From positions 1-37,550 of the IMG/VR virus record IMGVR_UViG_3300044641_005274: 37,550 nucleotides of DNA, one strand, 5' to 3'. Of this stretch, positions 12,127 to 35,478 are shown one piece after another. The position numbers were made by a program, and so were the translations under genes. Numbering within the stretch: position 1 is the stretch's first letter; the number at the start of each line of letters is the position of its first letter. This DNA is from a virus. Under the pieces are notes generated by a model. It did not search any database. It was not told the DNA's origin and worked only from the letters and a program-made list of their open reading frames with translations.

Positions 12127-12432
12127 ATGGCAAACAGATACAGGGACATAGCAAAATCAACAACTTCGGATGGAGTACAATATACCAATAATCCAATCTA
12201 TCCTGAAATTGCTTTATCTGAAAACGATTTCTATGTAATAACTTCGGAAGGAGATCGGTATGACACTTTGGCCCAACAATTTTACGACGACTACACACTG
12301 TGGTGGATTATAGCTGCAGCTAATACCTCAGAGAGAGCATCCTTGGTTATTACACCAGGAGTTCAACTACGAATCCCTGCAGACAAGGATAGAATAATAC
12401 AAGCATATAACCAGTTTAATACTAGTAGATAA
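12127..12432 (+). CDS. Baseplate wedge protein with LysM-like fold (T4 gp53-like)
   Basis: A 101-residue protein. The core (about 38-85) has YVITSEGDRYDTLAQQFY, then YTLWWIIAAANTSE and ITPGVQLRIP, the signature of LysM-like baseplate proteins such as gp53 (D.LA..FY...LWW.IA..N....P....G..L.IP). In T4 gp53 joins adjacent baseplate wedges. The stop codon overlaps the next gene's ATG (TAATG), coupling it to the large hub-like protein. The family call is good; wedge versus hub placement is inferred. Confidence 0.72.
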   Translation: MANRYRDIAKSTTSDGVQYTNNPIYPEIALSENDFYVITSEGDRYDTLAQQFYDDYTLWWIIAAANTSERASLVITPGVQLRIPADKDRIIQAYNQFNTSR

Positions 12433-15236
12433 TGGCAGGAGGAATAGGAAGCCCAATTAGAGCTGAAGTTGCAACTCAAATGGAAAGGAGGCAAGCTGTA
12501 ATATCTAAGACTCAACAAAGAACCGATAACGACTTATTATACCTTAACGGTAAAACAGGCTGGGTAAGACTATCATCAGGAATCAATACAATAACGCCAG
12601 CAGAAATAGCAAAGCTAAGAGCACAGAATGGTAGGTTTGATATAAAAGGTGATAGTACCGATGCAGGCTACAACATACTACAAGGTGGTGTACTACATCC
12701 AAACAGAGGGGTAAGAGCAGGTATAAACACATCAGGATTCTATGACGAATCTGCAGCATACAATAATAGAAAAGACACTACAGGTATAAGACCTATGCCA
12801 GGGATTACTTCTATGACTGTTAAAACAAAAAATGCTACCGGAACACTGAGAGAAGCTGAGGTAAAATTTACATGCTGGACGTTAGAGGATTTTGAGCTAA
12901 TGGAAAAGCTATACCTACGACCAGGATTTTCAATGCTATTGGAGTGGGGACATTCTATGTATATAGATAATAATGGAACTCTTATAAAAAACATAGAGAC
13001 AGTACCTAACGGATTTTTTGCAAATGGAATTAGTATGGCAGGTGTTCTAAAAAGTATCTCTAGCATTAGACAAAAGAGTAGCTACAACTATGAAGGAATG
13101 ATTGGGTACTGTAAGAATTTCTCTTGGACCTATACACAAGCAGGAGCTTACGAATGTAGTGTTAGTATTACATCAACAGGAGAAATACTAGAATCATTTC
13201 AAGTACGGTTTGATCCACAACTTAGGATAGATCCTGCAGATTTTGAAGACGCAGAATCAGAAACAGGAAAAGAAGAGCGTAAAAGTGTTTTTCATTTCTT
13301 CATTTCAAAAATGGATGAAATAAAAGAAGCTACTTTTACTAAAGCAGCACTTACAGCAAAAACACCAAGCTTAGGAGCAAAACTACAAGACTTTACAGCA
13401 TACTACTCAGCAGTGGAAATTGAAAGATGGGGTTGGGATAAAGATCAGCCAATGACTTGGATTCCTTTGAGAGTTGTCTTAGATGTATTTAACAATTGCA
13501 TTAGTCTAGTAGACGGAACTAAAAGTGAAGGAGATCCAGATAGATCATATATACATTTTAACACAGATTATTCTAAATCATCCAAATTCTTATCAAGTGA
13601 AGAGCACTTCTCAGTAGACCCTACTGTTTGTGTAATTCAGAATAAAGATACAAACGGATATGGAGTTGTAACAGCAATTCACGACAGCATAGCAACTTTA
13701 CCAGATAGCAGTACCTATGATGATGTGCTAAACATATTAGTAACAACAGCTTATTTAAAAAGTACATTAGACCTATCTTTAGACACTGCCGGAAAGGTAG
13801 ACAAAAGTATGTCAGACATAATGCAAACTTTTCTAGATGGTATTAACTCTGCTTTAGGTGGAATTAACGATTTTGCAATGTTACATGATGATGAAGATGG
13901 AGCTGGTACTTGGTACATTGCAGATAGAAATAATACACCTGCAGATACGGTTGTAAAAATGCCTGTTTTTACTTTAGCAGGACTAGGAAGTGTATTTACA
14001 GACATAAGCATTAGTAGTAAAATTTCAAACGAAATAGGAAGCAATATAGCAATTGCAGCACAGGGAACAGCGCAGAATTATTCACAAAATGTAGAAAACA
14101 TACTAAGATGGAATGAGGGAGTAATTGATAGAGTAAGAGTTACTAAAGACACTTCTAATACAGGCAAAGACGGAGTGCAAGCTGTAGAAGATGACAGAGC
14201 AAAACGAGAAGCAAAATGGATAGACACTTTAAAAACTTTCTTTGAGGACTTTAATGGAAGTGGCTATGACGAAGAGGATATGAAGACTGCTAAAACTATG
14301 CATGCTGAATGGACCCTAGAACACGTACTTAAAAAAGGTAGAACACAGAAAAAAGAACCACTTCCAGGAGCTGTACCAGTAGAGCTATCATTTAAGACAA
14401 CTGGTATAGGTGGATTTAGACCCATGGAAGCTTTTAAGATATCAGCAGGAATACTTCCAAGTAAGTACAATGAAAAATTTTGTTATTTGGTAACAGGAGT
14501 GGAACACACTTTGGATACAAACAATGTATGGGAAACTAACATATCAACTCAATTTTTTCCAATACAAGCACCTACAGCAGCGGAAATTGAAAACGCAGGT
14601 AAAAAAGGAACTCCACCACCAGGATCTCCACCAAAAGGTGGCGACGGTGGCGGTGGCGGCGATGGCGCTGAAACAGGAGGAGTTGTATCGGGAGATGTAA
14701 GACCTATCTCTAAAATGAAGCCGTATACTCAAGAAGTGTTGAAAACACATAAAGGATTGGTATTAGTAAGAGAGGCTGCAACAGTAAGAAGAACTATTGG
14801 TTCGTTATACTACAACCAAAAACTTATTGCAGTTACAGTAGAAGATGCTATTAGGGCGAAGAAAGTAAAAAGAGAGACTGCAATACCTGATACACTGTCA
14901 TTGAAAAAGGTTCCGTACAACCTGACTTTAGATACTACTGGAAACAAAAGTATTCAAAAAATTGCAGTTAACTTTAACGATGGAAAAGGAAAAGTAGCTC
15001 CTAGAGTAGGTACAGATAAATCAGCAGTTAATGTAGATGGACCAGGTAACTTAGATTTTGCAGGAATAAGAATCCATGCAGGAAAAAGTGAAGGTTGGTC
15101 AGAGGGATGTCTAATTGTTTCTTCCACTAGAAACAAAGACGGAACTATTGCATTAGATTATCCAAAAGCGACAGAAGTAGTAAGACTTATAAAAAGTAAT
15201 AATTTAAAAACAATTTACGTTGTAAACGATTTTTAA
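12432..15236 (+). CDS. Large baseplate protein with C-terminal DUF5675-like domain
   Basis: A 934-residue protein without signal peptide. Residues 1 to about 720 look like a baseplate hub or spike platform: VKFTCWTLEDFELMEKLYLRPG, FSWTYTQAGAYECSVSI and GTWYIADRNNTP are strand-rich phrases typical of such proteins. A Pro/Gly linker follows (about 718-745). Residues about 760-934 resemble DUF5675: LVLVREAATVRRTIGSLYYN, VTVEDAIR, TAIP-like, and IRIHAGKSEGWSEGCLIV with His882 and Cys893. That H...GC layout recalls L,D-transpeptidase-like active sites, so a peptidoglycan-acting tip replacing gp5 lysozyme is possible (inference). It is translationally coupled to the LysM-like gene. Confidence 0.7.
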   Translation: MAGGIGSPIRAEVATQMERRQAVISKTQQRTDNDLLYLNGKTGWVRLSSGINTITPAEIAKLRAQNGRFDIKGDSTDAGYNILQGGVLHPNRGVRAGINTSGFYDESAAYNNRKDTTGIRPMPGITSMTVKTKNATGTLREAEVKFTCWTLEDFELMEKLYLRPGFSMLLEWGHSMYIDNNGTLIKNIETVPNGFFANGISMAGVLKSISSIRQKSSYNYEGMIGYCKNFSWTYTQAGAYECSVSITSTGEILESFQVRFDPQLRIDPADFEDAESETGKEERKSVFHFFISKMDEIKEATFTKAALTAKTPSLGAKLQDFTAYYSAVEIERWGWDKDQPMTWIPLRVVLDVFNNCISLVDGTKSEGDPDRSYIHFNTDYSKSSKFLSSEEHFSVDPTVCVIQNKDTNGYGVVTAIHDSIATLPDSSTYDDVLNILVTTAYLKSTLDLSLDTAGKVDKSMSDIMQTFLDGINSALGGINDFAMLHDDEDGAGTWYIADRNNTPADTVVKMPVFTLAGLGSVFTDISISSKISNEIGSNIAIAAQGTAQNYSQNVENILRWNEGVIDRVRVTKDTSNTGKDGVQAVEDDRAKREAKWIDTLKTFFEDFNGSGYDEEDMKTAKTMHAEWTLEHVLKKGRTQKKEPLPGAVPVELSFKTTGIGGFRPMEAFKISAGILPSKYNEKFCYLVTGVEHTLDTNNVWETNISTQFFPIQAPTAAEIENAGKKGTPPPGSPPKGGDGGGGGDGAETGGVVSGDVRPISKMKPYTQEVLKTHKGLVLVREAATVRRTIGSLYYNQKLIAVTVEDAIRAKKVKRETAIPDTLSLKKVPYNLTLDTTGNKSIQKIAVNFNDGKGKVAPRVGTDKSAVNVDGPGNLDFAGIRIHAGKSEGWSEGCLIVSSTRNKDGTIALDYPKATEVVRLIKSNNLKTIYVVNDF

Positions 15237-24093: not shown

Positions 24094-25803
24094 ATGGGAG
24101 TAGATTACAGTACCTGGAAACCAGGTGTAGATTATCCAGACTGGATGAACGAAGTATCTTTGGCAACAATTTCAAATGGTTATTTATTACCTGATGAAAA
24201 TCCAAAGAAAGCATACAGAAGAGTTGCTGATGCAGTAGCTAAAAGATTAGATCGTCCTGATCTAGCAAATAAGTTTTTTAAGTACATGTGGAAAGGTTGG
24301 TTAAATTTAGCTTCACCTGTACTATCAAATACTGGAACTGACAAAGGATTGCCAATCTCGTGTTTTGGTATAGATACTCCTGATTCGATCAGAGGTATAG
24401 GATTAACCAATGCAGAACTAATGAGACTTACCTCTTTAGGAGGAGGAGTAGGAATTGGACTTGGAAGAGTAAGAGGTAGAGGAGTAAAGATTGGAAATGG
24501 AGAAACAGGACAGTCAGAGGGAATTGTGCCTTGGGCTAAAATATTTGACTCAACTATCATTGCTACAAATCAAGGATCAGTTCGTAGAGGAGCAGCATCT
24601 GTAAATTTAGATATTAATCATATTGACATAAAAGAATTTCTACGTATTAGAAGACCTCAAGGAGATCCAAACCGTCAGTGTTTGAATTTACACCAATGTG
24701 TTTCTATTGACGATAAGTTTATGAAAAAATTAGAACACAGAGATCCACAAGCAATGGAACTATGGGTTGAGATTTTAAAGTCAAGAGTTGAAACAGGAGA
24801 GCCTTACCTTATGTTTAAGGATAATGTCAACAATGCTAACCCACCAGCATATATAAAAAACAACTTAGACGTAACAATGACAAACATCTGCTCAGAGATT
24901 GCTTTACATACTGATGAGGAGCATTCATTTGTTTGTTGTTTATCTTCTCTGAACTTAACAAGATACGACGAATGGAAAGATACTGATTTAGTTGAGACAG
25001 CAATTTATTTCTTAGATGGAGTACTAGAAGAATTCTTAATTAAAACAAACGGAAAAGAATCTATGATTAGATCTCACCGTTCTGCTAAAAAAGGAAGAGC
25101 ATTAGGATTAGGAGTTTTAGGATGGCATTCATTCTTACAATCAAAAGGATTACCTTTTAACTCAATTGCATCTACTTCTTGGACAAATAGAATCTTCTCT
25201 CAAATTAAAACACAAGCAGAAGCAGCTTCAAGAAAATTAGCAGAGGAATACGGAGAACCAGTTTGGTGTAAAGGAACAGGAATGAGAAATACGCACTTAA
25301 TTGCAATTGCTCCAACAGTTTCTAATTCAACAATCTCAGGAGGAGTATCAGCAGGTATTGAACCAATTCCAGCTAACGTTTATACTTTCAATTCATCTAA
25401 AGGAACTTTCATTAGAAAGAACCCAGTATTAGAAAAGTATTTAGAAGATAAAGGACATAATACAGAAGAGGTATGGCAACAGATTTTAAAAGACAGAGGA
25501 TCAATTGCAAATCTACCAGAAGATATTATGCCGTTTGACGATAAAGAAATATTCTTAACATTTGCAGAAATAAACCAATTGGCTTTAGTTGAACAAGCTT
25601 CAGTAAGACAGAAGTATGTTGACCAAGCTCAATCACTAAACTTAGCATTCGATCCAGGGGATAGTCCTAAATTTATAAACCTTGTTCACCAGACAGCTTG
25701 GAAACTTGGATTAAAAACGTTATATTATTTACGAACGGATTCTGTCATAAACGGAGATATAGGAAGTAGAACTTCTGAAGACTGTTTAAGCTGTGACGGA
25801 TAA
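24094..25803 (+). CDS. nrdA: Ribonucleotide reductase large subunit, class I
   Basis: A 569-residue catalytic subunit, shorter than the usual 750 or so because the N-terminal ATP-cone is missing; the ten-helix barrel appears complete. Key sites: Cys in LPISCFGID, NICSEIAL (Asn-x-Cys-x-Glu active-site loop), CCLSSLNL, APTVSNSTISGG, the radical-transfer pair in LYYLRT, and the C-terminal redox pair DCLSC. It starts 9 nt after nrdB. Loss of the ATP-cone suggests it lacks overall dATP inhibition (inference from the family). Confidence 0.94.
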   Translation: MGVDYSTWKPGVDYPDWMNEVSLATISNGYLLPDENPKKAYRRVADAVAKRLDRPDLANKFFKYMWKGWLNLASPVLSNTGTDKGLPISCFGIDTPDSIRGIGLTNAELMRLTSLGGGVGIGLGRVRGRGVKIGNGETGQSEGIVPWAKIFDSTIIATNQGSVRRGAASVNLDINHIDIKEFLRIRRPQGDPNRQCLNLHQCVSIDDKFMKKLEHRDPQAMELWVEILKSRVETGEPYLMFKDNVNNANPPAYIKNNLDVTMTNICSEIALHTDEEHSFVCCLSSLNLTRYDEWKDTDLVETAIYFLDGVLEEFLIKTNGKESMIRSHRSAKKGRALGLGVLGWHSFLQSKGLPFNSIASTSWTNRIFSQIKTQAEAASRKLAEEYGEPVWCKGTGMRNTHLIAIAPTVSNSTISGGVSAGIEPIPANVYTFNSSKGTFIRKNPVLEKYLEDKGHNTEEVWQQILKDRGSIANLPEDIMPFDDKEIFLTFAEINQLALVEQASVRQKYVDQAQSLNLAFDPGDSPKFINLVHQTAWKLGLKTLYYLRTDSVINGDIGSRTSEDCLSCDG

Positions 25804-25814
25804 AATTAAAAAAT

Positions 25815-26270
25815 ATGGCATTATTAATTATTTCACTATTTCTAGCAATTGTAATTTTTCTTCTAACTGTAAAACTAAGAGAGTATGTAGAAGAGGTAGC
25901 ACAATTAAGAAAACAAATTGAACAAACAGCAGCAGCTCATATAATTGAGAAAGCAAAAGTAAAAAAAGATTCCACATTTAGATCTTCAGCAGTTAACTGG
26001 GGTAAAACAATTGAGCACTTTGTACCTTTTATGACAAAGTTTCCAGTACCAGCAGAAGATGTGGTTTTCTTAGGGATGCCAATAGATTATGTAGGATTTA
26101 CTGACACAGAGAGTAAAACTAAATGCGAAGTACACTTCATTGAAGTTAAGTCAGGAAACGCAGCTTTGATGGGTAAACAGAGAAATATTAAAAAAGCAAT
26201 TCAAGAAGGAAGAGTTCACTGGCATGAAATTGCAGTGGATGGAAACCGAGCAGAGATCGTAGAAGAATAG
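25815..26270 (+). CDS. Membrane-anchored Holliday-junction-resolvase-like endonuclease
   Basis: A 151-residue protein. Residues 2-20 form a hydrophobic segment (LLIISLFLAIVIFLLTV), followed by a coiled-coil stretch and then a nuclease domain resembling Endonuc_Holl (PF10107): FRSSAVNWGKTIEHFVPF, FPVPAEDVVFLGMPIDYVGF, and HFIEVKSGNAALMGKQRNI. The D...E-x-K arrangement (PIDYVGF and IEVKSG) is a PD-(D/E)XK active site. A role in resolving recombination intermediates for packaging is likely; the membrane helix is part of the family pattern in bacteria too. It closes the replication/nucleotide block. Confidence 0.75.
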   Translation: MALLIISLFLAIVIFLLTVKLREYVEEVAQLRKQIEQTAAAHIIEKAKVKKDSTFRSSAVNWGKTIEHFVPFMTKFPVPAEDVVFLGMPIDYVGFTDTESKTKCEVHFIEVKSGNAALMGKQRNIKKAIQEGRVHWHEIAVDGNRAEIVEE

Positions 26271-26271
26271 C

Positions 26272-26280
26272 TATTTATAT
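26272..26280 (+). promoter_or_regulatory. Late-type box before lectin gene
   Basis: TATTTATAT lies 3 nt before the ATG at 26284. The close spacing would give a nearly leaderless transcript, so the assignment is tentative. Confidence 0.35.
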
Positions 26281-26283
26281 CAA

Positions 26284-27282
26284 ATGAATATACTAGCCAA
26301 AATAGTAAAAATGTTATACCCTCTACTAATACTAGGGGGTATTTTGTCTACACAGAGTCAAACCTTTACCCACTCTGGATATATCTATGGTTCAAACGCA
26401 GTAGGAATACCAGGTGTACAGGTACAGCTATACAGTAGAACCACACCTACTTTAACAGGATTTACAAACCAGCAAAACTATAACGGTCATTCCTATTATA
26501 GATCAACAAGTTCAATGACATGGACAGCTGCAAGACAGGCTTGTGCTAATATGGGAGGATACTTAGTAACCGTAACTACACCTGCTGAAAATAACTTCAT
26601 ATTTAACTTATGGTCTGATGGATGGATAGGATTAACAGATGAAGTAGTGGAAGGTCAATGGAGATGGGTAAATGGAGAGCCTTATACTTGGGGAAACTGG
26701 AACCCTGGTGAACCAAATAACGCTGGTAATGAAGACTATATTCAATTTGTAGGAAATGGGAAATGGAATGATTTACCAAATGCTTCCTTACCTTATGTAT
26801 TAGAATTTGATTATATAGTAACTTTCACACCCTGGACTCTACTAACAACAGCTACAACAGATGCGACAGGAAGGTATGTATTTTCAACACCAACAAATCC
26901 TTCTGTAGAGTACTACATAACATTTACTCCTCCAACTTTACCTACATTACAAATAAGTGATGCTCAAGTTTCAAATAATGTAACATTAGGATCACTAGCT
27001 TTAAAGAGTAGAGATTATTTTAGATTTGATATTAATAATGACGGAAGAGTGACAATATCCGATACTTATTCAATATTTGCTAGAAGAAGAGGATTAATAA
27101 GTTCATTTATAGCATCACCTCCAGATAGTAGAATATTTACAACAACTCAATGGAGTACAATTAATGCAAGTACAGCAAACCTGAAAGCGTCATTTCCAGG
27201 GGTACAGTCAATAACAATAAACAACCCTGTATCGGGTGGAGTTTCTTCTTATTATATCACTAGACTGGGGTATAGCAACTAA
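26284..27282 (+). CDS. Secreted C-type lectin with dockerin-like motif
   Basis: A 332-residue exported protein. Residues 1-26 are a signal peptide. Residues 31-52 (SGYIYGSNAVGIPGVQVQLY) and 183-215 (TTATTDATGRYVFSTP and following) look like the two halves of a carboxypeptidase-regulatory-like beta-sandwich split by a C-type lectin domain at about 66-175. The lectin domain shows WTAARQACANMGGYLV, GWIGLTD, WRWVNGEPYTWGNWNPGEPNN with the mannose-type EPN motif (143-145), and WND (161-163). The usual disulfides are absent: Cys87 is the only Cys. Residues 249-260, DINNDGRVTISD, match a dockerin calcium loop. It starts the exported-protein block; sugar binding and docking are inferred. Confidence 0.8.
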   Translation: MNILAKIVKMLYPLLILGGILSTQSQTFTHSGYIYGSNAVGIPGVQVQLYSRTTPTLTGFTNQQNYNGHSYYRSTSSMTWTAARQACANMGGYLVTVTTPAENNFIFNLWSDGWIGLTDEVVEGQWRWVNGEPYTWGNWNPGEPNNAGNEDYIQFVGNGKWNDLPNASLPYVLEFDYIVTFTPWTLLTTATTDATGRYVFSTPTNPSVEYYITFTPPTLPTLQISDAQVSNNVTLGSLALKSRDYFRFDINNDGRVTISDTYSIFARRRGLISSFIASPPDSRIFTTTQWSTINASTANLKASFPGVQSITINNPVSGGVSSYYITRLGYSN

Positions 27283-27291
27283 AATTAAGAC

Positions 27292-27300
27292 TATTTATAA
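27292..27300 (+). promoter_or_regulatory. Late-type box before cohesin-like gene
   Basis: TATTTATAA lies 60 nt before the ATG at 27361. The leader between them holds a small hairpin (GTGC ATGA GCAC at about 27312-27323) and an A-rich tract. Confidence 0.5.
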
Positions 27301-27360
27301 AAGGTATGAGAGTGCATGAGCACCCGGTTGTGAAATAAAAATAACTTAAAAACAAAAGAA

Positions 27361-28452
27361 ATGAAAAAATTACTTTTAGTATTAAGTCTAGTTTTAGTAT
27401 CATTAACAGGATTTGCACAAACTACCGCACCTGATGCTACTAAGCCTTACTTAATATTTGACGCTAGTTACAACCTAGCACCAATTGGAGCAACACCTAC
27501 AAACGTTGCGATTTATTATGATAATGCTGGAGCAACAGCTATCAAAGCAGTACAGTACAGATTTTGGTACGACAAAAACGTATTTGCTTCTCCTACAGTA
27601 ACTTATACTGGAGCTGAAACAAACAATTATTTCCAAACATTAGTAAATGCTACTGAAGGAAATGTAACAGTTACATGGGTTTACACAGGAGCAGATGCTG
27701 CTTTCAATATTGCTGACGGAGCAATGTTTAATGTGGCTTTACCATTTAAAGCAGGTTATACAAACGGAGCTGTAACAGCAATGGCATTTTCAGGAGCAAC
27801 AGCTTACCCAGCTTACGGTACTGTAGCAAATGGAACCGATACATCATTAGGATTACAAAACTACGGAGGTGCATTCACAGAACCGGTATTTAACTACGCT
27901 GCTACATTCTTAAATGACCCAACCAACCCAGCTTCAGACATTCCAGTAATATTACAAAAATCTTCAAACGGAACAGTTTGGACAGATGTAATGACTGTTA
28001 ACACAGCAGCTACAACAGGAGTAGCATCATTTACAACTAACTTAGATCAAAACTACTGGCAGATTAGAGTAAAAGTAGCACCAGGATTAACAGCACCAGG
28101 AGCTTTAGCAACAGCAGATGCAAATATGATTGCTCAAATTGCTACAGGAATACAAGCTCCAACTGGAACTCAATTCTACACTGCTAACCCTAACCAAGCA
28201 AACGGAATTACAATTTCAGATTCATATACAGTATTCTCAAGATTAGCACAAGGTTTAACAACTTACCCAAACAATCCTGATGTATTATTCTTTACAGAAG
28301 CTCAATACACTCAAATTGCTGCAGCAACAACAAGTTTATCAGCAACAATTCCAGGGGTAGCAACATTCCTTTCAGCTAACATTAACAATACAACAGCAGC
28401 CAATTACTATCTATTAGTATTAGGAGACGCAAACGGAACAGGACGTAACTAA
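27361..28452 (+). CDS. Secreted cohesin-like protein with degenerate dockerin-like tail
   Basis: A 363-residue protein with a textbook Bacteroidota signal peptide (KKLLLVLSLVLVSLTGFAQ, 2-20). Residues about 30-165 have a cohesin-like pattern: VAIYYDNAGATAIKAVQYRFWYD, GNVTVTWVY and ADGAMFNVALPFKAG. A second beta-sandwich spans about 172-250. Residues about 252-363 are paralogous to the C-terminus of the upstream lectin protein: NGITISDSYTVFSRLAQG against DGRVTISDTYSIFARRRG, then a similar TEAQYTQI and IPGV run. Here the calcium-binding Asp residues are lost. Its own leader and late-type box suggest strong late expression. Cohesin/dockerin pairing with its neighbours is inference. Confidence 0.72.
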   Translation: MKKLLLVLSLVLVSLTGFAQTTAPDATKPYLIFDASYNLAPIGATPTNVAIYYDNAGATAIKAVQYRFWYDKNVFASPTVTYTGAETNNYFQTLVNATEGNVTVTWVYTGADAAFNIADGAMFNVALPFKAGYTNGAVTAMAFSGATAYPAYGTVANGTDTSLGLQNYGGAFTEPVFNYAATFLNDPTNPASDIPVILQKSSNGTVWTDVMTVNTAATTGVASFTTNLDQNYWQIRVKVAPGLTAPGALATADANMIAQIATGIQAPTGTQFYTANPNQANGITISDSYTVFSRLAQGLTTYPNNPDVLFFTEAQYTQIAAATTSLSATIPGVATFLSANINNTTAANYYLLVLGDANGTGRN

Positions 28453-28453
28453 T

Positions 28454-29185
28454 ATGTTACGCTATATAATCATAGCACTGTTATCAATAAGTTCACTATA
28501 TTCCCAGGTACAATTTCAAGTGCCTGGGATTACGGTGTCTCCGTCTAATACAATAGATCTACCTGTAGCTATTCTAACAAATGGAAATGCAGTAGGGAGT
28601 TTAGAATTTGCTTTAAACTACGATCAAAGCATCCTACAATTCTCAGAAATAATCTTATCTGAAAAAGCACAGACGTGGCTAACCTATACAATGGATACCG
28701 AAAACGGAAAAGTAAGATGGGGAGGATATGATAGAACTCATGGACAGCATACTGTAACAGCTCCAACAGAATTATTTATATTAAAATTTACAGTAATTAA
28801 TACTAACTGGACTCAGACTCCTATAACTGTAGGAAGAAAAACAGCAGGAAATGTACAAGGGTGGGATATCGCTGTAGCTAATACAGATGGATATATCAAC
28901 TATAATAGATATGCAACTCCTTTAGATGAAGATGGAATCCACGGAAAAGTATACCCAGTACCTACGGATGGAATTGTAACAATGGAAATGTCTTTACCAG
29001 TGAGTGGAGATTATGAAATTGTAGTTTACGACATGGGAGGAAATCAACTGAGTATAAGAAAGGAACGTTTTGCAAAAGGACCAAATACTACTTACGGAGA
29101 TCTAACTACTTACGCAAGTGGTAACTATTTATTAAATATAAGAAGTAAGAACTTCGCAAAAACATTTAAAGTAATAAAAAAATAA
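28454..29185 (+). CDS. Secreted cohesin-like protein with T9SS sorting domain
   Basis: A 243-residue protein with signal peptide (1-18, ending LYSQ). Residues about 19-150 form a cohesin-like domain: NTIDLPVAILTNGNAVGSLEF, ALNYDQSILQFSEI, and ELFILKFTV. Residues 165-243 match a type A T9SS sorting domain: KVYPVPTDGIVTMEM, EIVVYDMGGNQLS, ASGNYLLNIRS and a final KTFKVIKK. In Bacteroidota this tag sends proteins through the type IX machinery to the cell surface. It starts 1 nt after the preceding gene's stop. A phage protein with this address would be displayed or released by the infected cell. Confidence 0.8.
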   Translation: MLRYIIIALLSISSLYSQVQFQVPGITVSPSNTIDLPVAILTNGNAVGSLEFALNYDQSILQFSEIILSEKAQTWLTYTMDTENGKVRWGGYDRTHGQHTVTAPTELFILKFTVINTNWTQTPITVGRKTAGNVQGWDIAVANTDGYINYNRYATPLDEDGIHGKVYPVPTDGIVTMEMSLPVSGDYEIVVYDMGGNQLSIRKERFAKGPNTTYGDLTTYASGNYLLNIRSKNFAKTFKVIKK

Positions 29186-29188
29186 GCT

Positions 29189-29515
29189 ATGTCAGAAGAA
29201 GCAAACAACGAAGGTGGATTATCAGGATTGAAAAAAACCTTAATCGGAACTCTAGGAACTATTGTAACAGCAGGAGGAGTATGGTTAACAACTCAACTTG
29301 GTGGAGGTCACTCAGAAGATAAAGAGGAAGTAAAAACAGAACAAGTAGCACCTGCACCCGCAGCCGCACCTGTTGTAATTAACTTACAAAACAATAATAC
29401 TAATCAACAAAAACAATCTGGAGGTACACATACTGTTGTTAAAGAAAGAGTAATTGAAAAAGCAACTCCAGCACCACCACCAGCAGCAAAACAAGAACCA
29501 AAAGAATCTTGGTAA
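29189..29515 (+). CDS. Small single-span membrane protein
   Basis: A 108-residue protein with a Glu/Asn-rich start, one hydrophobic segment at about 17-37 (LIGTLGTIVTAGGVWLTTQL), then a Pro/Ala/Gln-rich disordered tail. There is no signal peptidase site, so it probably stays in the inner membrane. It is 3 nt from both neighbours. A holin-like or assembly role is possible; nothing in the sequence decides this. Confidence 0.6.
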   Translation: MSEEANNEGGLSGLKKTLIGTLGTIVTAGGVWLTTQLGGGHSEDKEEVKTEQVAPAPAAAPVVINLQNNNTNQQKQSGGTHTVVKERVIEKATPAPPPAAKQEPKESW

Positions 29516-29518
29516 TAG

Positions 29519-29788
29519 ATGGAAGAGGCTAAAGGGTTTGCGGATACATTCTTATCTAAACTAAAGGAACAGTCTTTTACTATATTAATTATGGTAGGAG
29601 TAATCTGGTACCAGGGAGTAATGATGGAAGAAAGAGTTGCATATTGGCAAAAAATGTATGAAGAAAAAGAAGCTTACATACAGCAAACAACAAAAGACGA
29701 TAAAACAATTCTATTGGATAGAATAAATTATCTTCAAGAACAAAGAGATAAGTACGTAGAAGATTTACTATTAGAAAAAAATAAATAA
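29519..29788 (+). CDS. Small membrane protein with coiled coil
   Basis: An 89-residue protein with one membrane span at about 19-36 (SFTILIMVGVIWYQGV) followed by a charged coiled coil to the C-terminus (YWQKMYEEKEAYIQQ, LQEQRDKYVEDLL). The gap to the upstream gene is 3 nt and to the downstream 2 nt, so it belongs to the same translational unit. It could be a spanin- or holin-associated protein or a membrane anchor for the next, Ala-rich protein. Function unknown. Confidence 0.6.
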   Translation: MEEAKGFADTFLSKLKEQSFTILIMVGVIWYQGVMMEERVAYWQKMYEEKEAYIQQTTKDDKTILLDRINYLQEQRDKYVEDLLLEKNK

Positions 29789-29790
29789 AA

Positions 29791-30738
29791 ATGGCAGAAG
29801 AGAATATCGGAGTTACAGCAGGTAACGAACAAGCAGGTGCATCAGCAGAAGCACATGCAGGAACAGAAGTAACAGATACATCAGTATCAGCAAATGCAGG
29901 AGTATCAGCCGAGGCTCATGCCAATGTAGAAAATACAACCGAAGTTGTAGAAGGAGTAGATATTAATTCAGAAGCACACGCTACAGCAGAAGCATCAGTA
30001 GAAGCACAAGCACAAGCAGGGTGGGATGGACAAGACGCTTCAGCATCAGCTGGAGTAACAGCTGAAGTAAAAGTAGAGGTAGAAGCTTCAACAGAAGTAG
30101 AAACTGATTACGGAACAGCAGGAGTACATGCCGGAGCATATGCAGAAGCTCATGCAGGAGTAGAAGCAAACGCTTCAATAGGAGAACATGGAGCTGAAGC
30201 TAACGCAGGAGCATCAGTTGGAACATCAGTAGGAGTAGAAGCTGGAGTAACAGCACAATCAGGTGATGTATCAGCAGAAGCTAATGCAGGAGTATCTGTA
30301 GGGGTACAAGCAGGAGCAGAAGTTGGTGGTGGAGCTACTTATGATGATGGGGCTATTACATTAGGAGTTGAAGGTGAATTAGCACTTTTAGTTGGTGTAG
30401 ATGTAGACGCATCAGTAACAATAGATGTATCAGATGAAGTTGAAGCAGCAAAAGAGGCAGCAGCACAAGCAGCTCAAGCAGCAGCAGATTTATTAGCGTC
30501 TCAAGAAGCAGCAGAAGCACAACGTGTAGCAGAAGAAGCAGCTAGAATTGCTCAAGAACAAGCAGCAGCAGCCCAAAGAAGGTTAGAAGAAGAAGCTGCA
30601 GCAGCACAAAGAGAATTAGAAAGACAAGCAAGAGAAGCTCAAGAAGCAATCGATAGAGCTGCAAGAGAAACTCAAGATGCACTTGATAAAGCAGCTAGAG
30701 AAGTAAAAAATGCATTTAATCCAAGAAATTGGTTCTAA
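29791..30738 (+). CDS. Ala-rich repeat protein with TolA-like coiled coil
   Basis: A 315-residue protein without signal peptide. Residues about 1-215 consist of degenerate alternating repeats of the kind SAEAHAGVEANAS and SVGVEAGVTAQ, with small residues every second position, suggesting an extended beta or fibrous structure. Residues about 217-305 are a long Ala/Glu/Arg/Gln helix (AQAAADLLASQEAAEAQR and similar) like TolA or other periplasm-spanning stalks, ending FNPRNWF. There is no Cys. Its stop overlaps the next ATG (TAATG). It may be a stalk or scaffold; composition makes any homology call unreliable. Confidence 0.6.
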   Translation: MAEENIGVTAGNEQAGASAEAHAGTEVTDTSVSANAGVSAEAHANVENTTEVVEGVDINSEAHATAEASVEAQAQAGWDGQDASASAGVTAEVKVEVEASTEVETDYGTAGVHAGAYAEAHAGVEANASIGEHGAEANAGASVGTSVGVEAGVTAQSGDVSAEANAGVSVGVQAGAEVGGGATYDDGAITLGVEGELALLVGVDVDASVTIDVSDEVEAAKEAAAQAAQAAADLLASQEAAEAQRVAEEAARIAQEQAAAAQRRLEEEAAAAQRELERQAREAQEAIDRAARETQDALDKAAREVKNAFNPRNWF

Positions 30739-31451
30739 TGATCAGAAAAATACTTTACATATTATTTCTACTATTCAGCATAATAGGCTCTGCTCAAAAG
30801 ATAGGGTCTGTTAAAACTGAGGAATACAAAGCTGATTTTGAAAAAAAACAATCATTGGATGTGGTATCTGATTATGCTGGGGATATTATCATTCCTATTC
30901 AGATTCTTAAAATTGGTATCAACGAAGAGTTGTACGAAATGTACCCAGAACTAAAAGATAAAAGAGTTGGTTTAGGGGTATCAAATATTGTACTAGAATA
31001 TTTAGAATCTACAAACAGATTTAAGTTTACAGAAGACCGAGAAGAAATAAAACAAAAAATGATTGCCCAGCACATAGCTTCTGCTAAGGGAATATCAGAA
31101 AATAAAATAGAAGTTAAAGGAAATGTTATATTAGCAAAGTATTTTGTTTATATAGAAGTCTATGACTTCAGCATAGGTGAGGATGAAGAAGTTTCAACCT
31201 CTGGAGCTGAGATAAGACAAAAAACAATATTAGGGTTACAAGTAAGATTTGTGGATGCACAAAGCGGTGAAATAATTACTGGATCAGGATCCGGTGAGGC
31301 AGTTACAGTGAAGAAGGCAAACTTATTAGATGGACTCGACGATATTAAATTCAATCAATCAACAATCGGAGTATCTACCAAAAAGTCATTAGAAACTGCT
31401 TCTTCAAGAGTCGTATCAAAAATGATTAAAAAGGGGATATTTCCGAACTAA
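30738..31451 (+). CDS. CsgG-family (curli secretion-like) exported protein
   Basis: A 237-residue protein; ATG at 30738 is preferred because it overlaps the previous stop (TAATG) and gives a clean signal peptide (IRKILYILFLLFSIIGSAQ). The mature part resembles CsgG/HfaB: VGLGVSNIVLEYLESTNRFKF about 76-96, ENKIEVKGNVILAKYFVYIEVYDF, and LQVRFVDAQSGEIITGSGSGEA. CsgG is an outer-membrane nonamer that exports curli subunits. This protein has no Cys at all, so the lipid anchor of CsgG is missing. It is followed without a gap by a barrel-like protein. CsgG-like genes are known in some marine T4-like phages, with no settled role. Confidence 0.65.
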   Translation: MIRKILYILFLLFSIIGSAQKIGSVKTEEYKADFEKKQSLDVVSDYAGDIIIPIQILKIGINEELYEMYPELKDKRVGLGVSNIVLEYLESTNRFKFTEDREEIKQKMIAQHIASAKGISENKIEVKGNVILAKYFVYIEVYDFSIGEDEEVSTSGAEIRQKTILGLQVRFVDAQSGEIITGSGSGEAVTVKKANLLDGLDDIKFNQSTIGVSTKKSLETASSRVVSKMIKKGIFPN

Positions 31452-32884
31452 TGAAAAAATGGGCTTGTATACTTTTTTACTTTTTCTTTCTGCAGAGCTT
31501 TGCACAGTACAGCTATACCTATACAGATCCATGTACACTTCAATTAAAGAGTGTATTCGTACCTGCTGGAGGTGGTGTAGTAGTAAACTACTTTAATAAC
31601 CAGAATACATTTAATTCAAATGACTTCTCTTCAGGAGCATTTGACAACTGGATAGCTCTAGTATCTCAACAAAATTCAAACTCACCTTGCCAATCTGTAA
31701 CCACAGCTATTGTAAATAGCATAACAAATGTAACAGTTGCAAACACACTAACTGTTGTTACAAATGTAATATCAGTAACAAACGTAGCCCAATCTATAGC
31801 AACCATAGGAGGATCTATGGGAAGTTCTATGACAGCTACAGCCGGAGGCGTAACAAACTCTTCACAAAGTGAAGGAGGTAGTACTAACCAAAATTCAAAA
31901 GATGAAAAAAAATCAGATTCAAATACACCTACAGGAACGAATTCAGGAACTACTGGAACAGGCTCAACAGGTAACCAAAGTCAAGGAGGCCAAACCAATC
32001 CTAGTTCTTCTGGAGGAACACCTTCACAACCTTCATCAGGAACACCTCAGCAAGGAGGAGAAACTACTAGTCCAAATCAACCAACTTCAACAGGAGGTTC
32101 TACGTCTGAGTCATCTGTAGAAGGATCAAGTGGTGGAGGGAGTAACTTAGCTAACTCTTTATCAAACTCCGTAGACGGAGGATCAGCTGATGGAGGAAGT
32201 TCATCAGGAGGTGGAGGAACATCAGGTGGAGGTAAAAAATCAAATACTGCTGCTAAAAGTGTAGGAAGTTTAATTGCCTCAGGAGATATAGTAGCTATTG
32301 CCAATACTGATCAAACTCAGAACTTTAGATTTGTAGGAAGTATAACTCATGCCAATACTAGAGGAACTAGAATTAAAGGAGTACTATTCAATTTTACCTC
32401 AGGAGTTAATAACCTAAATGTTACTTTTTATAAATCTTGGATTAATAAATCTAAAAAATTAAATACAGTAGGTGCTCAATCTCTTATGATGGATTTTGAT
32501 AAAAACTTCTTTAGTACAACTACAGTATTAGAATCATATAAAGTGAGTAGTAAACTAACAGGAATGTTTGGGGTTAATTTTACAGCAGGTAAAATGGGAG
32601 AAAGAGCTTTATTAAATCTATCTGCTGTAGCTGGAGGACATAGTAGTTTCAAATTAAGTGATAGAGTTAGTACTAGCGTACTTGTATTAGGAGTGTATTC
32701 TCCATTCACTCAGTTCTACGAAGGTAAGTGGTGGGATGCAGGTATCATAATAGTACCATTTAATTCATGGGATTTAAAAATAACTAAGACATTTAAGTTT
32801 AACGTAAGTTTTACAGGAGTATACGAAGCAGGTAAAGAATTTTTAAATTATCAAATATTAACAGGTGGTAAATTAACATTTTAA
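31451..32884 (+). CDS. Putative outer-membrane beta-barrel with Ser/Gly linker
   Basis: A 477-residue protein with signal peptide (KKWACILFYFFFLQSFAQ). Residues about 20-130 are Val/Thr/Asn-rich and include NSITNVTVANTLTVVTNV repeats. Residues about 135-275 are low-complexity Ser/Gly/Thr/Gln/Asn. From about 280 to the end, alternating aromatic and polar strands (FRFVGSITHANTRGTRIKG, FKFNVSFTGVYEAG) suggest a small barrel, ending in a C-terminal Phe as outer-membrane proteins do. It is TAATG-coupled to the CsgG-like gene, pointing to joint action at the outer membrane. No specific family recognised. Confidence 0.6.
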   Translation: MKKWACILFYFFFLQSFAQYSYTYTDPCTLQLKSVFVPAGGGVVVNYFNNQNTFNSNDFSSGAFDNWIALVSQQNSNSPCQSVTTAIVNSITNVTVANTLTVVTNVISVTNVAQSIATIGGSMGSSMTATAGGVTNSSQSEGGSTNQNSKDEKKSDSNTPTGTNSGTTGTGSTGNQSQGGQTNPSSSGGTPSQPSSGTPQQGGETTSPNQPTSTGGSTSESSVEGSSGGGSNLANSLSNSVDGGSADGGSSSGGGGTSGGGKKSNTAAKSVGSLIASGDIVAIANTDQTQNFRFVGSITHANTRGTRIKGVLFNFTSGVNNLNVTFYKSWINKSKKLNTVGAQSLMMDFDKNFFSTTTVLESYKVSSKLTGMFGVNFTAGKMGERALLNLSAVAGGHSSFKLSDRVSTSVLVLGVYSPFTQFYEGKWWDAGIIIVPFNSWDLKITKTFKFNVSFTGVYEAGKEFLNYQILTGGKLTF

Positions 32885-32886
32885 TT

Positions 32887-32955
32887 ATGAAAAAATTAAA
32901 TCAATTATTTGAAAGGTTTTACGATAAAGTATCAAATTTCCTTTTTGGAAGATAA
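32887..32955 (+). CDS. Tiny amphipathic peptide
   Basis: A 22-codon frame (MKKLNQLFERFYDKVSNFLFGR is 22 residues; key features are Lys2-3, Phe8, Phe11, Phe18, Phe20, Arg22) that begins 2 nt after the barrel gene and ends 14 nt before the next. It would form an amphipathic helix with Phe/Leu on one face. Position in a tightly packed operon supports translation; there is no other evidence. Confidence 0.4.
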   Translation: MKKLNQLFERFYDKVSNFLFGR

Positions 32956-32969
32956 AACAGTTTAGTATT

Positions 32970-33425
32970 ATGAAAAAATTATTTTTATTATTAGCATTAG
33001 TATTTTTAGTATCAGCTGATACAGCTACTAAGGAATGTTATAAAGTAACAAAAGTGTCTTCTCAAGTTGAAGCACCGGAAATGAAAAAAGAAAGAGTTGT
33101 ATTTGGTATTAAACAAATGACTGAAGAAATTCTATCTGAAAAGCACGACATATGCGAAGATGGAACTCCAGTTGAAGTAGAAGTATTATCAGTTGAAGCA
33201 CCTTCCACAAATACCTCTTTAGGACCATTCTCTAAAACTAAAAAAATTACTATTGTAAAATTAAGACTTATAATAGGAAAAGAAGAGTACTGGGGTCAAG
33301 GAGAAGCAAACGTAACAGTTCAATCGACATTCTTAGATTTGAACGACGATAATCTACCATTCAACAAGACTGCATTCTCAGGAGCAGTTAAAAAAGCTTT
33401 AGTAGAAGCTGTTGGAGAAATGTAG
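32970..33425 (+). CDS. Small secreted protein, unknown
   Basis: A 151-residue protein with signal peptide (KKLFLLLALVFLVSA) and no lipobox. The mature part has two Cys (in KECYKV and HDICED) that could form a disulfide, and a strand-rich end KLRLIIGKEEYWGQGEANVTV. It ends the block with the CsgG-like and barrel genes, so a periplasmic accessory role for them is plausible but unproven. The next promoter overlaps its 3' end. Confidence 0.6.
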   Translation: MKKLFLLLALVFLVSADTATKECYKVTKVSSQVEAPEMKKERVVFGIKQMTEEILSEKHDICEDGTPVEVEVLSVEAPSTNTSLGPFSKTKKITIVKLRLIIGKEEYWGQGEANVTVQSTFLDLNDDNLPFNKTAFSGAVKKALVEAVGEM

Positions 33426-33442
33426 AAAATTTCGTATCTTTA
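33412..33442 (+). promoter_or_regulatory. Promoter TTG-N20-TATCTTTA
   Basis: TTG at 33412-33414 lies within the upstream coding region; TATCTTTA is at 33435-33442. The ATG at 33447 follows by 4 nt, so the transcript would be almost or fully leaderless. Confidence 0.55.
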
Positions 33443-33446
33443 CAAT

Positions 33447-33653
33447 ATGGAAGATAAGAAATACACCATTACATACAGAAAGCAGAAATACGAACTAGAT
33501 GCGGAGTATTGGGATGAAACACAGCCTAATAGTAGTAGAGCATTTCAACTAAGACAACTTACATATTGTGTAGAGGTAGGAGATTTTGTTACTCTAGAAA
33601 ATAGAATAAACAATATGCTCAAGTGGGGAGGTATAAAAAAAGTAGAGAAATAG
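33447..33653 (+). CDS. Small unknown protein
   Basis: A 68-residue charged protein (YTITYRKQKYELDAEYW, then LENRINNMLKWGG) without membrane segment or recognised motif. It has its own promoter and is the first of a run of short genes, typical of early phage genes that modify the host. Function unknown. Confidence 0.55.
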   Translation: MEDKKYTITYRKQKYELDAEYWDETQPNSSRAFQLRQLTYCVEVGDFVTLENRINNMLKWGGIKKVEK

Positions 33654-33684
33654 TTGTATTTCTTAAATAAAATACTTATCTTAT
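33654..33684 (+). promoter_or_regulatory. Promoter TTG-N20-TATCTTAT
   Basis: TTG at 33654-33656 directly after the upstream stop, 20 nt, TATCTTAT at 33677-33684, then 22 nt to the ATG at 33707. Confidence 0.55.
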
Positions 33685-33706
33685 ATTATAATCAAAAATC
33701 AAATTT

Positions 33707-33862
33707 ATGTCTAAAAATTCAGCAAAGAGTATCTATACTCAACTAATGGAATGGCTTCCTACCCTGAACCGTCCAAAACAAGTAGCAGAACAATCATCAA
33801 CCAAATTCAGCAAAGCTGATCACTACAAATCGAAAGGAGCATATGGCAAAGCAGGTAATTAA
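33707..33862 (+). CDS. Small basic protein upstream of thioredoxin
   Basis: A 51-residue frame (SKNSAKSIYTQLMEWLPTL at the start, YKSKGAYGKAGN at the end), basic, without Cys or membrane span. Its last 20 nt overlap the thioredoxin start in another frame, suggesting coupling. It sits at the right distance from a promoter, which supports it as a gene; function unknown. Confidence 0.5.
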   Translation: MSKNSAKSIYTQLMEWLPTLNRPKQVAEQSSTKFSKADHYKSKGAYGKAGN

Positions 33863-34109
33863 ATTCTACGCAGATTGGTGCGGACCTTGTAAAGCATATG
33901 GACCAGCCTTTACTCAAGTAAGAGAAGAATTAGAAAGTGACGAGATTACTTTTTTAGAAATTAACGTAGAAAACGATCCGGACAATTTAGCAGGCGAATA
34001 CGGAGTAAGAGGAATTCCTCATACAGTAGTCGTAGAACAAGGAGCAGACTTCAGAGCTGCATCAGGAGGACTACAAGCAGAGTCGTTAAGGAACTTTATT
34101 TTAAACTAA
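33843..34109 (+). CDS. Thioredoxin-like protein
   Basis: An 88-residue thioredoxin fold, shorter than the usual 105 or so. The active site WCGPC is at residues 12-16 in FYADWCGPCKAYGPAF; the conserved cis-Pro is in VRGIPHTVVV. It can reduce disulfides in the cytoplasm (no signal peptide). The most likely partner is the phage's own class I ribonucleotide reductase, whose large subunit ends in the DCLSC redox pair. The start overlaps the small gene before it. Confidence 0.9.
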   Translation: MAKQVIKFYADWCGPCKAYGPAFTQVREELESDEITFLEINVENDPDNLAGEYGVRGIPHTVVVEQGADFRAASGGLQAESLRNFILN

Positions 34110-34121
34110 AAATCAAAACAA

Positions 34122-34430
34122 ATGTTACGTAATCCAAATACAATCGCAGCAGGTGATACAGTTATAGAAGATCCAATGATGGAACCTTTCTTCATCACAC
34201 ATTCTTCATCAGGAGGATACACAGTATTCGAAAAAGTAAATAGAGGTAAAGAGGATAGAGCATACATAAGAACAGTATGCTACCCAGCCACATTCAACCA
34301 CGCATTAAAGACAGTGTCAAAAGAATTACTAAACTTTGGTGAAAATAAACACTTCAATACTATTAAAGAGTATATCGAAACTTGGAACTCTATTGAGCAA
34401 AGTATGAAGACAATGACTACTATCGATTAA
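34122..34430 (+). CDS. Small unknown protein
   Basis: A 102-residue protein: an N-terminal strand region (PFFITHSSSGGYTVFEKV) followed by a helix with FNHALKTVSKELLNF and an acidic end. No membrane span or catalytic motif. It shares the transcript of the thioredoxin gene (12-nt gap). Function unknown. Confidence 0.6.
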   Translation: MLRNPNTIAAGDTVIEDPMMEPFFITHSSSGGYTVFEKVNRGKEDRAYIRTVCYPATFNHALKTVSKELLNFGENKHFNTIKEYIETWNSIEQSMKTMTTID

Positions 34431-34440
34431 CAAAAAGGAC

Positions 34441-34590
34441 ATGGTAGAGACATTTAGACATGCAATGGGACTGTGCGGAGAGCATTGGCATCCAAATTTA
34501 ATAAACATTTCTGCATTTTTTGTTGCCTTCGGAGGAAGTATTTCGTATATTAAATATAAAATAAAATCATTATGGAACAAGGAGAATTAA
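34441..34590 (+). CDS. Small membrane protein
   Basis: A 49-residue protein: FRHAMGLCGEHWHPNL near the start, one hydrophobic span about 20-37 (LINISAFFVAFGGSISYI) and a basic C-terminus. The Cys/His-containing start is distinctive and resembles short membrane proteins seen in other phages. It overlaps the next gene by 19 nt in another frame, and that gene's promoter lies within it. Confidence 0.55.
   Translation: MVETFRHAMGLCGEHWHPNLINISAFFVAFGGSISYIKYKIKSLWNKEN
34523..34553 (+). promoter_or_regulatory. Promoter TTG-N20-TATATTAA
   Basis: TTG at 34523-34525, 20 nt, TATATTAA at 34546-34553, all inside the small membrane-protein gene, 18 nt upstream of the ATG at 34572. Confidence 0.5.
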
Positions 34591-34775
34591 TTTCATTGTA
34601 TGATTATTTAGGTCATGCAGCAGGTGCTGAATTAGGAAAGCAAGTAGCAACAGCTGCTACTAGAGCTAAAGAGAAATTCGGAAAAAGAACTATTAGCAAT
34701 ACTCGATATAAAGGAGAAGTATTGCTTTATAGAAAAGCATTTTTAAAAGAGTATTTTCAAACCCAACAACAATGA
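34572..34775 (+). CDS. Small basic unknown protein
   Basis: A 67-residue protein with a helix SLYDYLGHAAGAELGKQV and a basic C-terminal half (ATRAKEKFGKRTISNTRYKG). No recognised family. Its stop overlaps an ATG opening an 11-codon frame that runs into the next gene, so coupled translation is possible. Function unknown; a nucleic-acid-binding role would fit the charge but is not shown. Confidence 0.5.
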   Translation: MEQGELISLYDYLGHAAGAELGKQVATAATRAKEKFGKRTISNTRYKGEVLLYRKAFLKEYFQTQQQ

Positions 34776-34790
34776 CTGACAAAGAAAAGT

Positions 34791-35252
34791 ATGAACGAAA
34801 CAAATAGCAACTGGCTGACAAATAATCCATGTAGTGTAACTACAGCAGGAATAACAACAGGAACATCGACAATAGCAGGAGGATACCCAGGAACATCTAT
34901 CAACACAAACCTCGGGACAGTAGGAATGGGTAATATTAATCCTTCAGAAAGACTTACAGTATCAGGAACAAACTTTAACCAAGGAGTAACCTTACAAGGA
35001 AATTCAACAATCAATTATTCAATATCAAATCAAATTCAAAATAACATGGCACCAAGACAAGTAAACGTAGCAGTATTTACAATCACAAGAGACAAAAAGA
35101 CAAATGAAATCAATTCAACAAAATTTGTAAAACAATTATGGATTGAGCAAAAGAATGGAATATCAATTGACTTACTAGTTGCAAAAGAATTAGGAAACGA
35201 CTTTGATCCAGAAACTACAGTTATTAAAGTTTTGACAACAGTTTCTTTCTAA
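34791..35252 (+). CDS. Unknown protein with Gly/Thr/Asn-rich start
   Basis: A 153-residue protein. Residues 1-60 are Gly/Thr/Asn/Ser-rich (TTAGITTGTSTIAGG, NTNLGTVGMGNINPSERL, the latter like phage structural tips), and residues 80-153 are a strand-helix region VNVAVFTITRDKKTNE followed by FVKQLWIEQKNGIS. No signal peptide. The role is unknown. Confidence 0.55.
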   Translation: MNETNSNWLTNNPCSVTTAGITTGTSTIAGGYPGTSINTNLGTVGMGNINPSERLTVSGTNFNQGVTLQGNSTINYSISNQIQNNMAPRQVNVAVFTITRDKKTNEINSTKFVKQLWIEQKNGISIDLLVAKELGNDFDPETTVIKVLTTVSF

Positions 35253-35257
35253 AAAAG

Positions 35258-35288
35258 TTGCATAAGTAAAAAACAATTAGTATCTTTA
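35258..35288 (+). promoter_or_regulatory. Promoter TTG-N20-TATCTTTA
   Basis: TTG at 35258-35260, 20 nt, TATCTTTA at 35281-35288, in a non-coding gap 28 nt before the lipoprotein ATG. This is one of the clearest members of the class. Confidence 0.65.
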
Positions 35289-35316
35289 AGTATTAGTATT
35301 AACAAAAACAATTAAA

Positions 35317-35478
35317 ATGAAAAAATTAGTTTTAGTATTAGCCGTAATGGCTTTAGGAGTAGTAAGCTGTAACAAAGTAACACCTCCAGCAAAATTAACA
35401 ACAGCAGATTCAACAGAAGTAGCAGTTGATTCAGTTCAAGTAAATTCTACAACAGTAGACACTACAGCTGTAAAATAA
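35317..35478 (+). CDS. Small lipoprotein
   Basis: A 53-residue protein with a lipoprotein signal peptide (KKLVLVLAVMALGVVSC; lipobox ending at Cys18) and a short Thr/Val/Asp/Ser-rich mature part. It would be lipid-anchored in the envelope of the infected cell. Small phage lipoproteins in other systems block receptors or DNA injection (superinfection exclusion); this is a possibility here, not a demonstrated role. It has its own promoter. Confidence 0.7.
   Translation: MKKLVLVLAVMALGVVSCNKVTPPAKLTTADSTEVAVDSVQVNSTTVDTTAVK

Follow-up and report, generated by a model that had tools for sequence, protein, structure and literature searches.

Conserved phage genes with lectin, cohesin-like, and dockerin-like modules that may form an adhesive scaffold on the surface of the infected cell

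The window, that is, the whole stretch of 37,550 nucleotides analyzed here, is a 37.5-kb IMG/VR fragment of a T4-like myovirus, in which ribonucleotide reductase genes and the T4-like genes for the tail sheath, the tail tube, a baseplate wedge subunit, and a gp32-like protein lie 5' of three genes, P1, P2, and P3, arranged head to tail on the + strand. The preliminary description of this DNA had assigned it to a T4-like phage, in agreement with these window genes and with the presence of gp20 and gp23 in the genome of a relative, Flavobacterium phage vB_FspM_immuto (hereafter, immuto). It had also reported three neighboring genes with export signals; all three open reading frames (ORFs) are present, each sequence shows on inspection a hydrophobic export signal at its N terminus, and we infer that P1, P2, and P3 are exported proteins. 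The genes of the locus are as follows.

26284 to 27282, + strand: P1, with signal peptide, X-module with an inserted C-type lectin head, dockerin-like module, and C-terminal strands
27361 to 28452, + strand: P2, with signal peptide, cohesin-fold domain 1, X-module, and dockerin-like module (adaptor-scaffoldin layout)
28454 to 29185, + strand: P3, with signal peptide, cohesin domain 2, and type IX secretion system (T9SS) type-A sorting domain (anchoring-scaffoldin layout)
29189 to 29515, + strand: P4, small protein with one hydrophobic stretch, conserved beside P3
30729 to 31451, + strand: P7, exported, possibly CsgG-like, conserved cluster member
31451 to 32884, + strand: P8, exported, with Ser/Gly-rich linker and, by eye, a beta-rich outer-membrane-like C terminus, conserved cluster member
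32970 to 33425, + strand: P9, small exported protein, conserved cluster member

P7 to P9 are conserved together with the trio. CsgG (PF03783) is matched by 2 of 15 relatives of P7, with a best E value of 0.01 and the family cutoff not reached, while the window P7 has no match to this family, no PDB match, and no significant similarity to Escherichia coli CsgG; P8 matches no family among the Pfam and T9SS sorting-domain profiles. An identification of P7 and P8 as CsgG and CsgF, with support that is marginal for P7 or lacking, was therefore rejected, as was a role of P4/P5 as a lysis holin, because the annotated holin and endolysins of immuto are located elsewhere and the holin match of P5 is weak. 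Between P5 and P7, only some relatives share P6 (29791 to 30738), an alanine-rich repeat protein (AEAHAGVSAEA...). Directly 5' of P1, positions 25815 to 26270 encode a Holliday-junction-type endonuclease (PF10107; E value, 1e-22) with an N-terminal membrane helix. Farther upstream, a 934-residue protein with a C-terminal DUF5675 domain (12432 to 15236) probably belongs, by position, to the tail module; its positional counterpart in immuto is annotated as a carboxypeptidase.

Two elements within P1 deserve separate coordinates.

26512 to 26778, + strand: C-type lectin head of P1 (residues 77 to 165), with Lectin_C match and EPN and WND motifs intact
27028 to 27063, + strand: dockerin-type calcium loop DINNDGRVTISD of P1 (residues 249 to 260)

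The C-type lectin domain noticed in the preliminary description matches Lectin_C (PF00059) with an E value of 6e-17 and 62.7 bits (cutoff, 22.6), and both of its sugar/calcium motifs are preserved. From its sequence, the identity of this head as a lectin is certain despite its poor modeling: in the predicted structure of P1, the pLDDT is about 80 to 94 for the X-module, of the transthyretin/CnaB-like (immunoglobulin/transthyretin-like) type, and for the dockerin-like module, and low for the lectin part. The model displays three helices in the dockerin-like module (residues 224 to 235, 242 to 248, and 258 to 268). Compared with the two F-hand repeats of a dockerin, the first repeat is degenerate and the second has a canonical loop, in which D249 and D260 never vary and N251 hardly varies among 42 sequences. 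The dockerin-like loop first claimed for the locus is thus present as DINNDGRVTISD, but the window P1 reaches only an E value of 0.12 and 13.0 bits against Dockerin_1 (PF00404), below the cutoff of 22.9.

Among 42 relatives of P1, Pfam recognized Lectin_C in 32, SdrD_B in 21, Dockerin_1 in 12, Laminin_G_3 in 3, and GEVED and PA14 in 2 each, with no hydrolase domain in any head; the EPN and WND motifs are kept in 32. The head is a lectin, a lectin with LamG, PA14, GEVED, or, in one type, nothing recognized, and among phages whose P2 is at least 90% identical to that of the window, lectin, GEVED, or unrecognized heads occur. The heads of P1 turn over, a pattern typical of proteins with variable binding targets. 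One contig carries two side-by-side P1 paralogs (L017, 6060 to 7328 and 7332 to 8336), one with an unrecognized head and one with a lectin. A large glycosyltransferase/nucleotide-sugar cluster, including a GDP-mannose-dependent mannosyltransferase, occupies positions 24573 to 35389 of another relative (L145) and 49 to 60 kb of immuto. C-type lectins with the EPN motif are of the mannose type, and the phage-made glycans of such a cluster could be the ligand of the EPN-type lectin that the same phage encodes.

The second protein with a clear family match is P3, whose alignment comprises 13 relatives. It scores 36.4 bits against Cohesin (PF00963; cutoff, 24.1), and its sorting domain, absent from P1 and P2, exceeds the thresholds of both Pfam PF18962 (Por_Secre_tail; 35.9 versus 27 bits) and TIGR04183 (38.8 versus 23), as expected from the T9SS-type sorting domain proposed at first; P3 combines this C-terminal domain with an N-terminal hydrophobic signal, as type-A cargo of the T9SS does. 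The window P2 has no Pfam match of its own, including to Dockerin (PF00404). In its N-terminal half, the Cohesin model touches relatives at E values of 7e-4 and 2e-3 (best, 20.3 bits; cutoff, 24.1), and the initial count of two cohesin-like domains holds, one being above the cutoff in P3 and the other cohesin-like through the relatives of P2 and the structural model of a fused relative described below. Furthermore, the X-module and dockerin-like module (X-Doc) of P1 and P2 share 31% identity (E value, 2e-10; 1e-25 in profile-profile comparison). Judged by this similarity, the C-terminal X-Doc of P2 is homologous to that of P1 and represents a second dockerin-like domain, missed by the preliminary description, whose calcium loop NPNQANGITISD is without an acidic residue at either position 1 or position 5. 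In profile comparison, the P2 cohesin shows no significant similarity to that of P3, and the two may therefore bind different partners.

A tblastn search of the trio against 50,697 phage records retrieved it in one named genus, Immutovirus, with 4 records at 70 to 76% identity and in the same order, and scans of IMG/VR gave 75 loci for P1, 46 for P2, and 26 for P3. Wherever a split P2 is complete (44 of 44 contigs), P1 and P3 are both present; in this split form, P2 stops at a conserved site, GDANGTG, and P3 carries a separate signal peptide. In 41 other contigs, P2 and P3 form a single natural fusion of about 630 to 655 residues with the arrangement Coh1-X-Doc-Coh2-CTD, beside which a separate P3 was never found, and P1 lies a few genes 3' of it. 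The fusion and the strict co-occurrence strongly indicate that the parts work jointly.

The fused form was also informative about the folds. One fused relative (L134) scores 23.2 bits against Dockerin_1, narrowly above the cutoff of 22.9 (E value, 8e-5), and in the set of 31 family members scanned with it, Cohesin was recognized in 21 and the sorting domain in 19. Its structural model has a mean pLDDT of 75, with about 80 to 96 in the cohesin domain that corresponds to the N-terminal half of P2, and the model as a whole matches the cohesins 2jh2 (TM score, 0.78) and 6kgf (0.73) in the PDB. Among the best matches are also 4fl4 and 3kcp, which, going beyond their PDB titles, we take to be the Coh-X-Doc C terminus of the CipA scaffoldin. 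Structure prediction is in line with the cohesin and dockerin folds initially suspected, with a cohesin fold in the fused relative and an X-module plus three dockerin helices in P1.

Each of the four modules was searched for by profile in the full set of six-frame ORFs from the window and from the complete genome of immuto, and the dockerin was found in P1 and P2 only, the cohesin in P2 and P3 only, and the C-terminal sorting domain (CTD) in P3 only. This closed docking set, the P2-P3 fusion, and the strict co-occurrence argue against three unlinked exported proteins, in which the cohesin and dockerin folds would be common Bacteroidota surface modules with no mutual assembly; such a reading, to which the weak dockerin signal in the window copies and the cohesins known outside cellulosomes (e.g., 2jh2 and 2xdh among the PDB matches) lend some weight, appears to us unlikely. 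The same confinement of the modules to P1 to P3 bears on the decoration of virions, one of the functions imagined in the preliminary description, according to which the exported proteins would coat the progeny at lysis and make the particles sticky. The profile search detected no matching cohesin or dockerin in any capsid, tail, or fiber protein of immuto, which makes decoration via the docking modules less likely, and the signal peptides and the T9SS CTD direct the proteins away from the cytoplasmic assembly of virions. Even with lectin-type heads and probable late expression alongside the structural genes in its favor, we consider virion decoration very unlikely.

As to the origin of the modules, 232 of the 295 Bacteroidota genomes searched have a match to the P2/P3 profile at an E value of at most 1e-10, and among the matches listed only the sorting tail is involved, the exception being a phage-like contig from a genome bin. 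It follows that the tail belongs to the type that the hosts themselves have, and the remainder appears to be phage specific; a host origin of the set was discarded because Bacteroidota genomes match via the CTD alone, apart from phage-like contigs in bins. Three P2 relatives binned with bacterial genomes (L148, L149, and L150), one of them labeled Sphingomonadaceae, appear to lie on phage contigs and probably reflect binning contamination. In PHROGs, neither P1 nor P2 has a family, and P3 has no significant match.

The boxes that the preliminary description had pointed out in front of two of the genes were located, together with a leader, as follows.

26272 to 26279, + strand: TATTTATA box before P1, 12 nt 5' of its start
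27292 to 27299, + strand: TATTTATA box before P2, 69 nt 5' of its start
27300 to 27360, + strand: conserved P2 leader, with a short GUGC/GCAC hairpin, then GGTT ... AACTTAAA

TATTTATA occurs 11 times in the window, against 4.8 expected, with 10 copies on the coding strand; window sites include 3239, 5390, 5977, 6998, 9743, and 18222. On the coding strand of immuto there are 30 copies, of which 24 lie 9 to 50 nt before an annotated start, in zones that make up 6.1% of the genome and would receive about 2 copies by chance (P about 3e-24), and the genes so preceded include those for the terminase, gp20, sheath, tube, hub, and tape measure. On these positional grounds, TATTTATA is probably a late-promoter element of this phage group, different in sequence from that of T4, which reads TATAAATA on the coding strand. 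Its presence before P1 and P2, as before structural genes, suggests that P1 and P2 are expressed late. The P1 box, closer to the start than in most structural genes, is kept at -12 or -13 in most split-clade P1 genes while the remaining upstream DNA differs, and the P2 box is found as TATTTAT about 65 to 70 nt upstream in most split-clade freshwater loci, followed by the conserved leader. The leader has a mean column identity of 71% across 18 loci; the sequence is conserved, covariation support for the hairpin is weak and not convincing, and an mRNA-stability or translation element is possible. Codon bias was dismissed as a sign of high P2 expression, since the C-ending fraction is 0.56 in the window but 0.36 in immuto.

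We lean toward the reading that the trio encodes a self-assembling adhesive scaffold, built on the surface of the infected cell through the T9SS of the host. Late in infection, Sec would take P1, P2, and P3 across the inner membrane, as their signal peptides suggest, and host type IX secretion would carry P3 over the outer membrane and anchor it via the type-A sorting domain. P1 and P2 might pass the outer membrane carried along with P3 or via P7/P8. In view of the domain families and the closed gene content, the P2 and P3 cohesins would receive the dockerin-like ends of P1 and P2, in the order head-X-Doc (P1), Coh-X-Doc (P2), and Coh-anchor (P3). The fused form keeps its dockerin despite carrying the anchor, so neighboring molecules may cross-link into a coat, which would be adhesive through its swappable sugar-binding heads. 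Of the scaffold logic first proposed, the domains, the conserved trio, and the scaffold-like order stand, but "cellulosome" is a likeness only, as there is no glycoside hydrolase in the scanned P1 to P3.

It is possible to hypothesize, tentatively, that the coat tethers the dying cell to neighboring cells or particles so that the progeny meet new hosts. We favor tethering as the likeliest purpose, with receptor masking against rival phages close behind. In the latter case, the heads of the coat would bind and mask the host glycan or receptor used by competing phages, as the predicted T9SS routing to the surface and the interchangeable glycan-binding heads of P1 would allow; superinfection exclusion has also been proposed for the T9SS cargo of Cryophage (PMC7468147) and for an S-layer-like phage protein in Melnitz (PMC9004378). 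However, the probable late-promoter boxes imply expression at a stage when exclusion helps less, and for this reason we prefer tethering and regard exclusion as somewhat unlikely. A cellulosome-like metabolic aid, that is, a scaffold capturing nutrients or polysaccharides to feed the infected host, would parallel the Coh-X-Doc modules of scaffoldins; with no hydrolase domain in the P1 heads and with expression probably late, it is the least probable of the readings weighed here. In its full form, the tethering reading is more doubtful, namely that lytic T4-like phages of Bacteroidota build through the T9SS a cross-linked cohesin-dockerin coat, a virus-made extracellular matrix whose interchangeable sugar-binding heads would stick the dying cell to particles or new hosts.

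To our knowledge, no cohesin-dockerin assembly is known from any virus, and none was found for phages in the open-access literature; the scaffold is new as far as we could find. If the proposal is true, it would be the first known viral cohesin-dockerin assembly and an example of a lytic phage that adds a modular adhesive structure to the surface of its host. How aquatic Bacteroidota phages influence aggregation, particle attachment, and competition between phages becomes open to testing, for which the cultured pair of immuto and Flavobacterium sp. LMO8, its host, exists, and the family is a potential source of compact new cohesin-dockerin pairs.

The whole trio, in the same order and at 70 to 76% identity, is found in immuto (Immutovirus, NC_055915.1, gp013 to gp015), where it is annotated gene by gene as lectin, hypothetical, and cohesin; we found no study of it as a set in the literature. 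Among the clostridial cellulosome scaffoldins (CipA Coh-X-DocII and anchoring scaffoldins; PDB 4fl4, 3kcp, and 5k39), for which X-Doc structures have been described (PMC5141474), the Coh-X-Doc order is that of P2, and a separate surface-anchored cohesin and an X-Doc with a functional head correspond to P3 and P1. Different from these, the trio is phage borne, has a Gram-negative T9SS anchor where the scaffoldins use S-layer-homology anchors, carries a single cohesin in each cohesin-bearing protein, presents binding heads and not enzymes, and has no known role with cellulose; dockerin-bearing enzyme subunits, by which a cellulosome is recognized, were not found, the immuto dockerins being in P1 and P2 only. 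The initial view that no such phage system had been described requires qualification, since T9SS cargo (PMC7468147) and curli pores (PMC7029224 and PMC9004378) of phages are already reported. The curli cluster (csgG and csgF) of pelagimyophages and methylophages (PMC7029224 and PMC9004378), for which "sibling capture" has been proposed, is likewise an exported outer-membrane cluster between the replication and structural modules of T4-like aquatic phages; the available portions of these articles mention no cohesin, dockerin, or lectin, and P7 of our locus is a marginal CsgG match. The phage-encoded T9SS cargo of Cryophage (Bellas et al. 2020, PMC7468147) likewise has type-A tails and varies among phage variants, one protein having a PA14 domain. 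It is presented as separate tagged proteins, with no mention of cohesin-dockerin modules in the available portion of the article, whereas in the trio P3 alone is tagged and P1 and P2 would be expected to dock.
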